Assembly: GCA_027531255.1 (NCBI GenBank) | Contig: JAPZRU010000013.1 | Location: 1 to 64,000, forward strand | Direction: 5' to 3' | Source of the DNA: Steroidobacteraceae bacterium | Lineage (GTDB): Bacteria; Pseudomonadota; Gammaproteobacteria; Steroidobacterales; Steroidobacteraceae | DNA length: 64,000 bases | Part shown: positions 16,781-33,068 of the stretch, piece by piece | How the letters are laid out: the number at the start of each line of letters is the position of its first letter | How positions within the stretch are numbered: position 1 is the stretch's first letter | The notes under the pieces: generated by a model | The model's database searches: none | The model's input: only the letters and a program-made list of their open reading frames with translations | What the model was told of the DNA's origin: nothing | Made by a program: the position numbers and the translations under genes

Positions 16781-18505
16781 CTACGTCGCGCCGGCGCGAT
16801 GCCGCGCGAGGTGCCGCGGCGTCCACGAGTGCGGCGCGCGGTGCACGAACCGGTGCCGCGCGACGTGGTAGCTCGTGTCGAAGCCGTAGAAGCTGCGGCG
16901 CATCTGCGCGAGTTCCTCGGCCCGGTACTGCGCCAGCGGCTTCGCCCGCTCGTCCTCTTCCCGACGCTCGCGCTTGGCGTCCAGCTGCGCGGCGTGATCG
17001 GCCGCCGTCGCGAGCGCCTGCGCCCGCGCCGCCACCTCGGCCTCGAAGTCGCCGGCGGTCGCGCCGAAGGTCGCATCGACGAGCCCGCGTGACTCCGCCT
17101 GCCGGCCCAGCAGCGGCGGCCGTTCGTCGATCAGGCGGCGCGCCTCCACCAGCCCCACGCGCCGGGGCAGCGTGTAGGTCCAGTACTCGCTGCCGTACAG
17201 GTTGCCCATGTTCCGATAGTGGAAGTTGAGCACCACGCCCGGACGCGCCCAGACCCGGTCCGCCGCCAGTGCCAGGAACGCACCGCCAGCGCCGGCGTTG
17301 CCGCGCAACGCGGCGACGGTGAGCTTGCCGTCCAGCCGCAGGATCCGTTCGGCGACGTCGTCGATCGCCTGGATGTTGCGCCACGACTCGTCGGCGGCGC
17401 TGTCGGCCGCCTCGATCACGTTCAGGTGCACGCCGTTCGACCAGAAGTCGCGGCCGCCCTCCAGCACCAGCACGCGCGTCGCTCGCGCCGCGGCCGCGTC
17501 GAGCGCGGCGCACAGGCGTTCGCACTGCGCCGCGCTCATCGCGCCGTTGTGGAACTCGAACGCGAGGTGACCGACGTCACCGTGTTCACGGTAGCGGATC
17601 TCGGCGCGGTCGTGCGCCCCGAAGGCTGGCAACCCGGGCAGGGTCGCGGCCGCAGGACACGCGAGCGTCGCCGGCAGCTTGAAGGACTCGGACTGCGCGC
17701 GCCGCGCGTGCCCGATCCAGACCGAGCCGTCACGCGTGGCCCGCAGCAGCGCGGTGCCGCGCCGGCCTAGCCAGGCGCCGGGCCGCACGGACGCGACCGG
17801 ACCGACCGCGCGAAGCGCGGTCTGCGCCGGGCCGCGATTCGCGTCGTACAGGTGACAGGGCTCGTCGAGTACCGCGTCGAGCACGCCCGGAGTGGAGTCC
17901 GCCGCACGCAGCTTCGCAAGCACCATGTCCGTGTCGTCGCGCTCCCAGTCGATGCGGCGCTCAACCTGCTTCGGCGCCGGATGCCACGTGCCGGCCGTCG
18001 CCGGGTCCAGCGCGGCCAGCGGCGTCGGCCGCGCGCCCGCCGCGCGCCGGTCCAGCGCGGCGAGCACCGCGCTCACCGCGCCGTTCGTCGTCTCGTCGCG
18101 GTAGAGGCTGGCTTTCGTCGCCTCGCGCATGGCGAAGGACGCGCTGGCCCAGACGTCGCCGGCGTCGAAATCGGCCGACGCCTCGAGGACGGTCACGCCC
18201 CACTCGCGACGCCCCTCGCGGATCGCCCAGTCGAGAGCAGCCGGGCCGCGATCGCCGGGGATGCCCGGGTGCACGATCCAGCACGGCACGCGGCGCCAGA
18301 CGTCCTCGGGGACCGCGCGCTTCAGGAACGGCGCAACTACGAGGTCCGGCGCGTGCAGGCGCACCGCCTCGCGCGTGACGTCGTCCGCGATGTCGAGCTC
18401 GAGGCTGACGTCGTGCCCGCGATCGGCGAGCTCGCACCACAGGCGCTGGGTCAGGCCGTTGAACGAATGCGCTAGCAGCAGGATCCTGAGCCGGCCCGTC
18501 GTCAT
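16781..18505 (-). CDS. hypX: HypX/HoxX hydrogenase maturation protein (CO-forming)
   Basis: A 574-residue two-domain protein. The N-terminal half (about 1-270) is a formyl-transferase-like domain with the conserved HPGIPGDRGPAALDWAI segment, which binds formyl-tetrahydrofolate in this family. The C-terminal half is an enoyl-CoA-hydratase/crotonase domain with LEGGRDFWSNGVHLNVIEAA and RGNAGAGGAFLALAADRVW. HypX is known to make CO from formyl-THF through formyl-CoA, supplying the active-site CO ligand of NiFe-hydrogenases under aerobic conditions. It is the last gene of the operon, 16 bases after hypE. Its presence fits an oxygen-tolerant hydrogenase made in air. Confidence 0.94.
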   Translation of the reverse strand: MTTGRLRILLLAHSFNGLTQRLWCELADRGHDVSLELDIADDVTREAVRLHAPDLVVAPFLKRAVPEDVWRRVPCWIVHPGIPGDRGPAALDWAIREGRREWGVTVLEASADFDAGDVWASASFAMREATKASLYRDETTNGAVSAVLAALDRRAAGARPTPLAALDPATAGTWHPAPKQVERRIDWERDDTDMVLAKLRAADSTPGVLDAVLDEPCHLYDANRGPAQTALRAVGPVASVRPGAWLGRRGTALLRATRDGSVWIGHARRAQSESFKLPATLACPAAATLPGLPAFGAHDRAEIRYREHGDVGHLAFEFHNGAMSAAQCERLCAALDAAAARATRVLVLEGGRDFWSNGVHLNVIEAADSAADESWRNIQAIDDVAERILRLDGKLTVAALRGNAGAGGAFLALAADRVWARPGVVLNFHYRNMGNLYGSEYWTYTLPRRVGLVEARRLIDERPPLLGRQAESRGLVDATFGATAGDFEAEVAARAQALATAADHAAQLDAKRERREEDERAKPLAQYRAEELAQMRRSFYGFDTSYHVARHRFVHRAPHSWTPRHLARHRAGAT

Positions 18506-28053: not shown

Positions 28054-28653
28054 TCAGCCCCTCCGCGCGAAGAAGCGGGCGTCGCCATGTCGGAAGGCCT
28101 CCGCCTCGGTCGGGCGCTCGGCCTCGTAGCGGACCAGCCCGAGCGGGTCCGCGGTGATCGACCGCCGATCGCGCCGGCGCGTCGCGAACCCCCAGCCCGC
28201 GAGCCGCGCGAGCGCGATCCCGATCGCGTGGGGAATCTGCGCGCGCACCGCCGGCCGCAGGCTGCCGCCGAAGTCCTCGAGCTCGACCGGCTGCACGCCG
28301 ATCAGCACCAGCTCGGACGGCGCGCGCCCGGAGAGCTGCGCGGCCGCGAGCACTTCCTGGAAGCCGGTCTGGTGCAGGCTCATCTTCTTGGCGCCCATGA
28401 AGCTCGGCACCCGGTCGCCCTCGAGCACCTGCAGAGTGCCGGGCACGAGGCCGAAGTCGATCGCGTCGAAGACGAGCAGGCGGCGCGCCTCCTGGACCTG
28501 CGGCAGCAGGTAGAGCCCCTGCGTCCCGCCGTCGAGCAGCCCGACGGAATCCGGAAGGCTCCAGTCGGCCGCCAGCGCCTCGACGCAGCGAACGCCGAAA
28601 CCCTCGTCGGCCCAGAGCACGTTGCCTATCCCGAGGACCAGCGCTTCGCGCAT
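28054..28653 (-). CDS. hupD: Hydrogenase maturation endopeptidase HupD
   Basis: A 199-residue aspartic-type endopeptidase that removes the C-terminal peptide of HupL after nickel insertion. Signature: VLGIGNVLWADEGFGVRCVE, with the nickel-sensing Glu and Asp, then LLVFDAIDFG, the LHQTGFQEVLAAAQL segment and LIGVQPVELEDFGG. The substrate site is visible in this window (after HupL His581). Translation start: GGGGAG lies 4 bases before the ATG, but it falls within one arm of a perfect hairpin (28656-28679). The gene opens the second part of the operon, after the higA insertion and a 175-base spacer. Confidence 0.94.
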   Translation of the reverse strand: MREALVLGIGNVLWADEGFGVRCVEALAADWSLPDSVGLLDGGTQGLYLLPQVQEARRLLVFDAIDFGLVPGTLQVLEGDRVPSFMGAKKMSLHQTGFQEVLAAAQLSGRAPSELVLIGVQPVELEDFGGSLRPAVRAQIPHAIGIALARLAGWGFATRRRDRRSITADPLGLVRYEAERPTEAEAFRHGDARFFARRG

Positions 28654-28655
28654 TC

Positions 28656-28679
28656 GTCTCCCCTCCGCGACGGGGAGAC
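28656..28679 (-). promoter_or_regulatory. Hairpin masking the hupD ribosome-binding site
   Basis: On the mRNA strand GTCTCCCC, an 8-base loop and GGGGAGAC form a perfect 8-bp stem. The 3' arm contains the only Shine-Dalgarno-like sequence of hupD (GGGGAG), 4 bases before the ATG. Such an arrangement can lower or regulate translation initiation; no such hairpin precedes the other genes of this operon. Confidence 0.5.
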
Positions 28680-28696
28680 TGTAACGGGCGACGTAA

Positions 28697-28710
28697 CGTA
28701 CAACTGTACG
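28697..28710. promoter_or_regulatory. Palindrome CGTACA-AC-TGTACG in the higA-hupD gap
   Basis: A perfect dyad with 6-base arms and a 2-base centre lies in the only long gap inside the hydrogenase operon, about 45 bases before hupD and 120 bases downstream of an HTH antitoxin-like gene. Size and symmetry fit an operator of an XRE/HigA-type dimer, but no binding data can be inferred from sequence alone. Confidence 0.3.
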
Positions 28711-28828
28711 GAGCGTCCGAGAGCGGCTAGGTGACTACCGAAGCCTCGACCGCCGGGAGCTCCGAACCGAACCGCGAGACCCTTGCGAGGCGCGGTCGTA
28801 CTGCGGGGCCACCGGCACCCCGGCGCGC

Positions 28829-29137
28829 CTACCTGTCCTTGTCGAACTCGACCTTGGCGCGATGCAGGTCCCACGCGGCCTGCAGGTGGAGCCAGAGCTC
28901 CGGGCCCGTGCGGAAGTAGCGGGCGAGACGCAGCGCGGTATCGGGCGTGAGGCCGCGGCGGCCGTTGACGATTTCGTTGACCCGCCGGCGCGAGATGCCG
29001 AGTTCCCGGGCCAGCGCCTCCTGCGACAGGTTCAGCGGCTTCAGGAAGCGGGACTCCAGGAAGTGTCCCGGATGGACCGGCGTGCGGCCGGCGGGCCGGC
29101 GCCGGCCGGTGGCACGCCCTGCGGGGGGCACGAGCAT
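28829..29137 (-). CDS. higA: HigA-family antitoxin-like XRE regulator (orphan)
   Basis: A 102-residue protein. After a basic 30-residue leader it has the HigA/VapI pattern: PVHPGHFLESRFLKPLNLSQ, the helix-turn-helix ARELGISRRRVNEIVNGRR, then GLTPDTALRLARYF and GPELWLHLQAAWDL. HigA proteins neutralise HigB mRNA-interferase toxins and repress their own operon. No HigB-like gene is nearby: the preceding gene is hupC, 2 bases upstream, and the next is hupD. AAGGA at the end of hupC serves as its ribosome site, so it is co-transcribed with the hydrogenase structural genes. It may be a solitary regulator or an acquired remnant. Confidence 0.88.
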   Translation of the reverse strand: MLVPPAGRATGRRRPAGRTPVHPGHFLESRFLKPLNLSQEALARELGISRRRVNEIVNGRRGLTPDTALRLARYFRTGPELWLHLQAAWDLHRAKVEFDKDR

Positions 29138-29139
29138 CG

Positions 29140-29841
29140 CTAGTCCTTGAAGGTCCGGTAGCCGCTGACCATGGTCGACATGATGCTCTGTCTGCTGGTG
29201 ATGTCTTCGCGGATTGCCGCATACAGGTGGATCATCGTGAAGGTGATCACGACCCACGTGCCCAGGTGGTGCCAGGTGTGCACCGCCTGCGAATCGCCCA
29301 GCAGCGGGATCACCCACCCGAACGCCACGTTCGCCCAGCTGCCCTCGCCGGTGCCTTCGCCGTACAGCGCGAAGCCCGTCGCGATCATGAAGAACGTCGT
29401 CACCATCAGCACGAAGCACATGAAGAACTGGGCGAGCGGGTTGTGGCCGCCGTACTTCAGCGGCTTGTCCGCGGCGAACGAGTACCAGCGGATCTCGTGC
29501 CACATCTCGCGCCAGTACTGGCGGCTCCAGAGCGGCACGACGAACAGCTGCTTCGCGTAGTCGTTGCCGACGAAGGCCCAGTAGATCCGGAGCACCGTCA
29601 CGATCGCGAGCACGTAGCCCGCCGTGAAGTGCGCGAACCGGATGTAGCCGAACAGGAAGGAGTCCGAGGCCTCGCCACCGACCGACGGCGGCGGGTAGGA
29701 GATCAGGAACCCGGTCGCCACCAGCACGACCATCGCAACCGCCTGCACCCAGTGCCAGAGGCGCACCGGCGCCTCGTACACGTAGATCGACTTCAGGGTC
29801 TGCGCGTTCGGGTCCGCGCTCAGCTCGTTGTACTGCAGCAC
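29140..29841 (-). CDS. hupC: NiFe-hydrogenase b-type cytochrome subunit HupC
   Basis: A 233-residue membrane cytochrome b that anchors the hydrogenase and passes electrons to quinone. Four hydrophobic segments are visible (around WVQAVAMVVLVATGFLISY, FTAGYVLAIVTVLRIYWAF, FFMCFVLMVTTFFMIATGF and LGTWVVITFTMIHLYAAI). Candidate heme-ligand histidines sit in RLWHW, IRFAHFTAG, HTWHHLG and TMIHLY. The start motif KSIYVYEAPVRLWHWV is typical of HupC/HoxZ. It follows hupL by 55 bases and is followed at once by the higA-like gene instead of the usual hupD. Confidence 0.95.
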   Translation of the reverse strand: MLQYNELSADPNAQTLKSIYVYEAPVRLWHWVQAVAMVVLVATGFLISYPPPSVGGEASDSFLFGYIRFAHFTAGYVLAIVTVLRIYWAFVGNDYAKQLFVVPLWSRQYWREMWHEIRWYSFAADKPLKYGGHNPLAQFFMCFVLMVTTFFMIATGFALYGEGTGEGSWANVAFGWVIPLLGDSQAVHTWHHLGTWVVITFTMIHLYAAIREDITSRQSIMSTMVSGYRTFKD

Positions 29842-29896: not shown

Positions 29897-31687
29897 TCAA
29901 CGCACCTTCACCTTCGTCAGTTCCCCGCCGTCCGGCGCCATCACGTGCGTGGAGCACGCGAGGCACGGGTCGAACGAGTGCAGCGTCCGCAGGATCTCGA
30001 GCGGCTGGTCGGCCACCGCGACCGGCGTGTTCATGAGCGCCGCCTCGAACGCGCCGATCTGGCCCTTCGAGTCACGCGGGCTGCCGTTCCACGTGGTCGG
30101 CACCACCGCCTGGTAATTGTCGATCCTGCCGTCCTTGATGACGATCCAGTGGCCGAGCGCGCCGCGGGGCGCCTCGGTGAAACCGACGCCCTTGGCAACC
30201 TTCGGCCAGCTCGACGGCTCCCACTTCGCCGTGTTCGCCGTGGACTGGTCGCCGGCCTTGATGTTGGCCAGCAGCTTGTCCTGGAAGTAGCGGAGCTTAT
30301 GCGCCGCCCAGCTGCACTCGAGTCCGCGCGCGGCGGTGCGCCCGAGCGTCGAGAACAGCGCCGGCACCGGCACGTCGAGCGTGCGCAGCAGCTTCTCGGT
30401 CGGCTCCTTGAACTCCGGGTTGCCCTGCGCGTACCCGATCACGTAGCGAGCGAGCGGGCCGACCTCCACCGCGTGACCGCGCCAGCGGGGCGCCTTGATC
30501 CACGAGTACTTGGCGCCCTCGTCGATCTGCTCGATGTTCGTCCTCGTGCCCTTGGACTTCGGACCGAGCTCGAACTTCGCCTGCGTGACGCCCTCCCACG
30601 GATGGAGCGCCTTGACGCCGTCCGGGTACTGGTACCACGAGTGGTCGACGCTCTCCTGGATCTGCTCGGGATCCCGGAGGTCGACCTCGTGGATCTTCGA
30701 CAGGTCGCCGCCGACGATCGCGCCGCGCGGCATCAGCAGGTTCTTCGCCGAGAAGTCGTTGGCGCGCTCCGGGATGTCGCCGTACGACAGCACGCTCTGC
30801 GACGAGATGCCGCCGCCGTGCAGCCAGTCCTTGTAGAAGCTCGCGATCGCGATCAGGTCGGGGACGTAGACCTGGTCGATGAACTCGATCGTCTGGTCGA
30901 TGATCGACGAGACGAGATTCAGGCGCTCCATGTTGATCGCGCCGCCGGCGCCGGTGTCGTGCACGTTGATCGCGCACGGCATGCCGCCGACCAGCCAGTT
31001 CGGGTGCGGGTTCTTGCCGCCGTAGATCGTGTGGATCTTCACGATCTCCTTCTGGAAGTCGAGCGCCTGCAGGTAGTGCGCGACCGCCATCAGGTTCGCG
31101 TCCGGCGGCAGCCTGTAGGCCGGGTTGCCCCAGTAGCCGTTCATGAACGGCCCGAGCTGCCCGGACGCCACGAACTTCTTCAGCCGGTTCTGGATGTCGC
31201 GGAAGTAGCCCGGCGAGGACATCGCCCAGGGCGAGATCGACTGCGCGAACTCGCTGGTGGCCTTGGGGTCCGCCTTCAGCGCGGAGACCACGTCGACCCA
31301 GTCGAGCGCGTGCAGGTGGTAGAAGTGCACGAGGTGGTCGTGCACCTGCAGCGTCAGCTGCATGATGTTCCGGATCGAGTTCGCGTTCTCGGGAATGTCT
31401 ATCCCGAGCGCGTCCTCGACCGCGCGCACGCTCGTCAGCGCGTGCGTGCCGGTGCAGACGCCGCAGATGCGCTCGGTGAACGCCCACGCGTCGCGCGGGT
31501 CGCGGCCCTTCAGGATCACCTCGAGGCCGCGCCACATCGTGCCGGTGGAGACGGCGTTGCGGATCACGTTCTGCCCGTCCAGGTTCACCTCGACGCGCAG
31601 GTGCCCCTCGATGCGCGTCACCGGATCGACGACGACGCGCTTGCCCGAATCGTCGAGGCGAAAGCCCTGGGTCTCGTAAGCGCTCAT
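29897..31687 (-). CDS. hupL: Uptake NiFe-hydrogenase large subunit HupL
   Basis: A 596-residue precursor of the catalytic subunit that splits H2 at a Ni-Fe(CN)2CO centre. The nickel ligands are in the N-terminal motif RICGVC (Cys75, Cys78) and the C-terminal motif DPCLACSTH (Cys575, Cys578, His581). Cleavage after His581 by HupD would remove the 15-residue tail starting VMAP. Other family signatures: [43 protein letters not shown] and GALGHW. It closely follows the membrane-bound group 1d pattern (HoxG of Ralstonia, HupL of rhizobia). The ATG is 2 bases after the hupS stop. The mature enzyme is carried to the periplasm by the Tat signal of HupS. Confidence 0.97.
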
Positions 31688-31689
31688 CG

Positions 31690-32859
31690 TCAGGCCCCCC
31701 GTCCCGTGTTCTGGTCCACCGCGGCGGTCTCGGCGGGTCGCCGCCCGCCCTGCGGGTCCCTTCTCTGGCCCGTCTCCTCGCCGTTCCGGTCGAAACCGGT
31801 GCCGTGGTCGAGTCGCGCGCGCTTCAGAGCGGTGAGGCCCGCGTGCGCGGCGATGGCCGTGCCGGTGACGGCGGCGACCGCGCCGCCGATCCGGTCCGCG
31901 TTGCCCTCGACGCCGAACGCGTTGATCTGCGTGACGCGGTCGTAGAACGAGCCCTTGTCCCAGAAGCCGTCCTCGGAGCAGCCGATGCAGCCGTGGCCGG
32001 AGGCGATCGGGAACGACACGCCCTCGTTCCAGCGCATCGTGGAGCACGGGCTGTAGCTGGTCGGGCCCTTGCAGCCGACCTTGTAGAGGCAGTAGCCCTT
32101 GCGAGCGCCCTCGTCGTCCCACGCCTCGACGAACTGGCCCGCGTCGAAGTGCGGGCGGCGGTAGCACTTGTCGTGGATGCGCTGGCCGTAGAACATCTTC
32201 GGCCGCCCTTGGCGATCGAGCTCGGGGATGCGGTCGAAGGTCAGCATGTAGGTGACCACGGCGGTCATCACCTCCGCGATCGGCGGACAGCCGGGCACCT
32301 TCACGATCGGCTTGTCGGTGATGACCTTGTGGATCGGCGTCGCCTGCGTCGGATTGGGCTTCGCGGCCTGCACGCAGCCCCACGACGCGCACGAACCCCA
32401 GGCGATCACGGCCTTGGCGTCCTTCGCGACCCACTTGAGCTTGTCGATGAACGGCTTGCCGCCGCTGATGCAGAACATCCCGTCCTCGGCGAGCGGCGGG
32501 TTGCCCTCGACCGCGAGGATGTACTCGCCCTTGTGCTTCGCGGTGATCTCTTCGAGGATCGCGTGCGCCTGGTGGCCCGCAGCGGCCATCAGCGTGTCGT
32601 CGTAGTCGAGCGAGAGCATCGACAGCACGACGTCCTTGGCCAGCGGGTGCGCGGAGCGGATGAACGACTCCGAGCAGCAGGTGCACTCGAGGCCGTGCAG
32701 CCACAGCACGGGCGTGCGCGGCTTCGTCTCGAGCGCGTGCGCGATGCGCGGCGCGAACGCGGACCCGAGGCCGAGCGACGTCGCCGTCAGGCTGCAGAAC
32801 TTCACGAAGCTGCGGCGGGTGATGCCCTGGCGTCGCAGCACGTCGTAGAACGTTTCCAT
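31690..32859 (-). CDS. hupS: Uptake NiFe-hydrogenase small subunit HupS (oxygen-tolerant type)
   Basis: A 389-residue precursor of the electron-transfer subunit. The Tat signal is TRRSFVKFC within residues 13-22, with a hydrophobic stretch ending near HAL (43). Six cysteines for the proximal 4Fe-3S cluster are present at 59, 61, 62, 157, 162 and 191. With a 42-residue offset these equal HoxK Cys17, 19, 20, 115, 120 and 149, so both supernumerary cysteines (19 and 120) that give oxygen tolerance are conserved. Medial and distal cluster residues follow ([43 protein letters not shown]). A C-terminal transmembrane helix (about 325-345) anchors it next to HupC. First gene of the operon. Confidence 0.97.
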
Positions 32860-32940: not shown

Positions 32941-33068
32941 ATATCCGTAGAGCCCGCAGCCGCACGCGCGACGCGCGACGCGCGTAACCCGGGCCGTTAC
33001 ATCCCGCGCGCGAGTCCCGGCTCGTAACGGACCTCGTTACCGAACGCGTCGCCGCCGCGCGCACGAAA

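Follow-up and report, generated by a model that had tools for sequence, protein, structure and literature searches.

The stretch of DNA analysed here (64,000 nt from a member of the Steroidobacteraceae, in the following called the window) carries a gene cluster for a membrane-bound [NiFe] uptake hydrogenase in the order hupSLC-higA-hupD-hupF, which is followed by hypB, hypF, hypD, hypE and a HoxX-like gene (table 1). The latter (16784–18505), which comes after the last of the hyp genes, encodes a fusion of a formyltransferase-like and an enoyl-CoA-hydratase-like part and produced weak NCBIfam matches only. The higA-like gene, which has no place in the usual order of such operons according to a sequence-only reading of the locus, begins 2 nt behind hupC and is followed by a spacer of 175 nt before hupD; as this reading had stated for both gaps, the spacer is the sole long one, the remaining gaps measured in the operon being 2, 55 and 7 nt. 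An assembly join at 28650–29140 can be excluded, because the identical hupC–higA junction recurs in independent assemblies from many genera. The spacer has no match to a structured RNA in Rfam. A gene for an Lrp regulator near the cluster is arranged divergently to one for alanine dehydrogenase, and in a related genome (G380) neither of the two is found beside hupS.

Table 1. Genes and promoter elements of the hup-higA locus in the window.
Feature	Position	Strand	Description
hupD	28054..28653	-	maturation endopeptidase; first gene past the spacer
spacer palindrome	28681..28697		GTTACGTCGCCCGTTAC; in the higA–hupD spacer, predicted HigA operator; starts 44 nt before the hupD ATG
TACAGT	28703..28708	-	-10-like (putative function), located 11 nt before the spacer palindrome; relatives have TATAGG/TATTCA-type elements here
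higA-like gene	28829..29137	-	102 aa, XRE/HigA fold, toxin partner absent
hupC	29140..29841	-	b-type cytochrome subunit
hupL	29897..31687	-	large subunit
hupS	31690..32859	-	small subunit
TACGGAT	32943..32949	-	conserved, -10-like; exactly 34 bp from the proximal hupS palindrome
proximal hupS palindrome	32984..33000		GTAACGGCCCGGGTTAC; nearer of the two sites preceding hupS; start 141 nt ahead of the ATG
distal hupS palindrome	33024..33040		GTAACGAGGTCCGTTAC; farther of the two sites preceding hupS; start 181 nt ahead of the ATG, at 40 bp from the proximal copy

Both by sequence and by fold, the product of the inserted gene belongs to the HigA family. It scores 105 bits against the antidote_HigA profile TIGR02607 (cut-off 47.7), and its AlphaFold model (pLDDT 90) is a confident HigA fold with HigA of Pseudomonas aeruginosa, HigA of C. 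burnetii and GraA as best PDB matches (41–44% identity in the aligned core). Dedicated regulators of uptake hydrogenase operons are known in the form of the HoxA/HupR-type σ54 activators, which operate with HupUV/HoxBC and are far bigger proteins of several domains whose partners sense H2. The hup-linked HigA, for which we propose a similarly dedicated role, differs from these AAA+ proteins in size and architecture, i.e. it consists of a single HTH domain, and the hup cluster of the window revealed neither an activator of this type nor any other hydrogenase regulator besides it.

The arrangement is not peculiar to the window. Among 396 genomes of the order, seven (the window's included) have the HupC closest to that of the window, and all seven have HigA directly behind hupC; the more distant hup clusters examined run from hupC to hupD without HigA. 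A family-alignment scan of about 85,000 species' genomes yielded 80 loci that divide cleanly. In the first set, HigA is located behind hupC and HigB is absent; this set comprises Steroidobacteraceae and related MAGs, a Nevskiales MAG, Zoogloea, Sideroxydans and other Burkholderiales (Betaproteobacteria) as well as many Oceanospirillaceae, so that the search of related genomes proposed by the sequence-only reading finds a hupC-adjacent higA across many genera. Most of the remaining loci have HigB just 5' of HigA and no hup genes, and these HigB-linked relatives never occur at hup. Hup-linked HigAs were thus found at at least 39 loci, always directly behind hupC, i.e. at 38 loci plus L103, which is assigned to the first set because its contig starts with the sequence encoding the C-terminus of HupC. 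As side observations, two hup operons from genomes of the same order (L068 and L070) contain two tandem copies of hupC, and one locus (L090, genome G144) has a gap of more than 300 nt between hupC and hupD with neither higA nor the palindrome described below. An origin of higA from a phage or plasmid was considered and rejected, since the matches there are distant HigAs only (less than 60% identity), and membership in a defence system likewise, for which a single very weak match was found.

The long spacer contains a palindrome of 17 bp, overlooked in the sequence-only reading, with the consensus GTWAC-N7-GTWAC, mostly in the form GTAACG-N5-CGTTAC. In the window it accounts for six strand-matches where 0.4 would be expected, a result obtained in 0 of 100 shuffles. 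All seven Steroidobacteraceae carry it in the spacer, starting 44–47 nt before hupD, and all seven carry it before hupS, with two copies there in both the window and G380. Across 37 hup-higA loci (416 kb), 26 of 27 palindromes precede hupS or hupD or follow directly on higA; higBA loci contain a single one in 381 kb, and hup loci lacking higA have none in 115 kb. It is also missing from the hupS promoters of 21 loci and the hupD upstream regions of 23 loci that lack higA. Outside the Steroidobacteraceae, nearly all other genomes with hup-higA also have the palindrome before hupD; it was not found in the sequence examined of L107 and L103.

At the scale of entire genomes, too, the palindrome is concentrated at hup. 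In two genomes of 4.1 and 4.3 Mb, all copies are found there (two of two in G207, three of three in G380), followed by two of three copies in G337, G262 and G375, two of four in G221 and three of seven in the window's own genome, while Zoogloea, Sideroxydans, the genome of L111 and the Nevskiales MAG have one to four copies each, one of them at hupD. The probability of such a placement arising by chance is 1e-3 to 1e-12 per genome. In the Oceanospirillaceae the motif is looser and commoner genome-wide (8–41 copies), and 20 of 21 hupD promoters carry it, with L216 showing a near-match only. Most of these bacteria have a hupD that does not adjoin higA, with unrelated genes lying between them in both loci examined, and the promoters with the palindrome include those of genomes in which hupD is located kilobases away. 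Since hupD promoters carry the site even when separated from higA, it is a promoter element rather than a remnant of the higA end. In Pontibacterium granulatum (L122:6426–6956), an ORF identified by eye as resembling REP-associated (Y1-type) transposases lies between higA and hupD and may have caused their separation. Two copies elsewhere deserve mention. In L234 (G000:C35:550500–570000), a palindrome at 2803–2819 precedes a putative cytochrome-type gene by 193 bp, which makes this gene a possible further member of the regulon. Approximately 5 kb away, a second [NiFe] hydrogenase is encoded (hupS-like; hupL 58% identical), which is not accompanied by a HigA. In L235 (G000:C17:27500–31500), the palindrome GTAACGGTCAGGGTTAC at 1770 starts 38 nt ahead of an ORF whose predicted product is a membrane protein, possibly also a regulon member.

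Upstream of hupS in the Steroidobacteraceae, the distance from the end of the palindrome to a TACGKAT element is 34 bp in six of seven genomes and 23 bp, i.e. one helical turn less, in the seventh. At hupD of the Oceanospirillaceae, the distance from its start to a σ54-like TGGCAY element is either 42–44 (8 cases) or 53–55 (15 cases) with none in between, and these two classes are again one helical turn apart. Such helical phasing suggests a protein that touches the promoter complex from one face and hence activation. A different placement is seen in the window's spacer as well as in Zoogloea, Sideroxydans and the Nevskiales MAG. Here, the palindrome starts just past a -10-like or -12-like element and would cover the presumed start point, a location that points to repression; the spacer site begins 11–12 nt after the start of the -10-like element, at the presumed transcription start of hupD.

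An important question is which protein reads this palindrome. The closest solved homologue of the hup HigA by sequence is GraA of Pseudomonas putida (E 7e-23; PDB 6F8H, 6FIX), whose operator contains TTAAC-GAATAAC-GTTAA, i.e. TTAAC-N7-GTTAA (PMC6393540). In our alignment the two operators share their spacing and a TAAC/GTTA core, but GraA, which is encoded in graTA next to the toxin GraT, is a repressor of the TA operon to which it belongs and has no link to a hydrogenase. HigA of P. aeruginosa (PDB 6JPI, 7CSY), identical in fold, binds a TTAAC/GTTAA palindrome and also controls non-TA genes such as mvfR (PMC6987408); its higBA is intact, however, and regulation beyond the TA module is secondary for it. 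The hup HigA, in contrast, is toxin-less, and in the closest genomes its sites are for the most part confined to hup. HigA2 of V. cholerae binds an inverted repeat with N5 between the arms (PMC11006873). Moreover, the HigB-linked relatives have the sequence AGCATG-N5-CATGCT before higB in 27 of 37 loci (L117–L178, mostly Chloroflexota), the predicted operator of that HigBA family, in which the 6-5-6 layout is the same as at hup and both the half-site and the helix (mostly VPYQR[IV]NEIVNG) are different. Thus, the hupS and hupD promoters carry a palindrome with the layout found for GraA, V. cholerae HigA2 and the HigB-linked operators, which makes HigA its probable reader.

Alternatively, the palindrome could be the site of some other hydrogenase regulator co-travelling with the same hydrogenases, e.g. 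a σ54 activator of the HoxA/HupR type, with HigA being a passenger or otherwise employed. This would fit the σ54-like elements found near the palindrome in the Oceanospirillaceae and the betaproteobacterial and Nevskiales relatives, which also have a second, shorter large subunit resembling that of a regulatory hydrogenase. Yet at the hupS promoters of the Steroidobacteraceae the palindrome is phased in the absence of any σ54-like element, it is missing from higA-less hup loci, including two with σ54-like hupS promoters, its geometry and TAAC core fit operators of the HigA family, and the window's cluster has no recognisable activator of this kind; we therefore regard this explanation as unlikely. 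The notion that HigA has replaced σ54 control holds only partly, because higA and σ54-like promoters coexist outside the Steroidobacteraceae.

That the hup HigA acts as an antitoxin which stabilises the hup locus, one of two roles envisaged in the sequence-only reading, would require it to neutralise a HigB encoded elsewhere, as no HigB is present near hup-linked HigAs at any locus examined. Its family and fold are those of an antitoxin, and the window's genome does encode two HigBs (PF05015) besides three HigAs. Both HigBs, however, adjoin the other two HigAs (on C22 and C1) and are thereby taken as distant partners, which leaves the hup-linked HigA an orphan, just as the absence of an adjacent higB had indicated. 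In addition, only 6–19 residues follow the [WFY][DE][LMI] motif in hup HigAs versus 19–50 in HigB-linked ones, and this shorter C-terminal tail gives a hint, though only a hint, against neutralisation of HigB. With the palindrome also tying the protein to hup promoters, a stabilising antitoxin appears very improbable. A TA-type gene pair within a hydrogenase operon has a precedent in sll1225-ssl2420 of Synechocystis (PMC4963859); this, however, is a complete TA pair in the bidirectional hox operon and is read as stabilising, in contrast to the toxin-less regulator in an uptake hydrogenase operon considered here.

Orphan antitoxins are a common type of relic, and with three HigAs in the genome the one at hup could be a recent capture that drifts or decays without function, but this is refuted in practice by a single ancient clade intact in 39 loci, an invariant recognition helix and a conservation exceeding that of the neighbouring gene products. 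In the seven Steroidobacteraceae genomes, identity is 66–89% for the HigA core compared with 59–64% for HupC and 57–67% for HupD. The recognition-helix residues S49–R52, N54 and E55 (SRRR-NE) are invariant in 28 hup HigAs with a mean column identity of 52%, although part of this invariance reflects selection, since the pattern-based scan (R[VI]NEIVNG; HPG..F) is biased towards sequences having such a helix. A tree of 107 HigAs, based on 95 columns only, places the hup-linked ones in one clade (support 100/97), and mapping the presence of higA onto a HupC tree requires four changes compared with a shuffled mean of 17.6; higA has therefore kept to the lineage of the hydrogenase, apart from a few gains, losses or transfers. 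The other role envisaged for the gene, that of a captured transcription factor which tunes the accessory genes, is well supported as far as regulation is concerned, given a HigA-type palindrome in the higA–hupD spacer and, in this lineage, also before hupS, but the capture was not a local event: it is old and has a single origin.

Overall, we consider it highly probable that the hup HigA is a HigA which lost its toxin and was domesticated a single time to serve membrane-bound [NiFe] uptake hydrogenase operons as their dedicated transcription factor. It would be made as the last gene product of a hupSLC-higA transcript, as the 2-nt gap suggests, and a dimer would bind the 17-bp palindrome, in the Steroidobacteraceae at two promoters. 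At hupS, the site upstream of the -10-like element has an activator-like position, which would also be autoregulatory; at hupD, the spacer site would occupy a repressor-like position over the presumed start; and in other lineages the hupD site is retained beside a σ54-like promoter. HigA is thus probably a dual and local regulator that couples the amount or timing of the maturation genes, from hupD onwards, to the structural genes. As the protein has no sensor domain, any physiological signal would have to be carried by its dose, its turnover or a partner. More tentatively, HigA could act as a dual regulator on σ70-like and σ54-like hydrogenase promoters alike, with phased upstream sites activating and sites at transcription starts repressing, a generalisation we consider somewhat less likely than not. 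If true, an XRE/antitoxin-type protein would help to control σ54 promoters and adjust how much hydrogenase is made relative to its maturation machinery.

In open-access texts of PubMed Central, no paper came to light that connects HigA with an uptake hydrogenase operon. Regulation of other genes by antitoxins is already known; striking here are the permanent domestication with a single origin and the clean operator and regulon. The hup HigA offers a clear and testable case of an antitoxin that has permanently become the regulator of one pathway; its operator is predicted, and its regulon in the closest genomes comprises essentially hup alone. For cultured marine genera such as Marinobacterium, Amphritea and Neptuniibacter, this suggests that uptake hydrogenases are subject to a level of control hitherto undescribed. 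More generally, the automatic label 'addiction module antitoxin' can mask a metabolic regulator.
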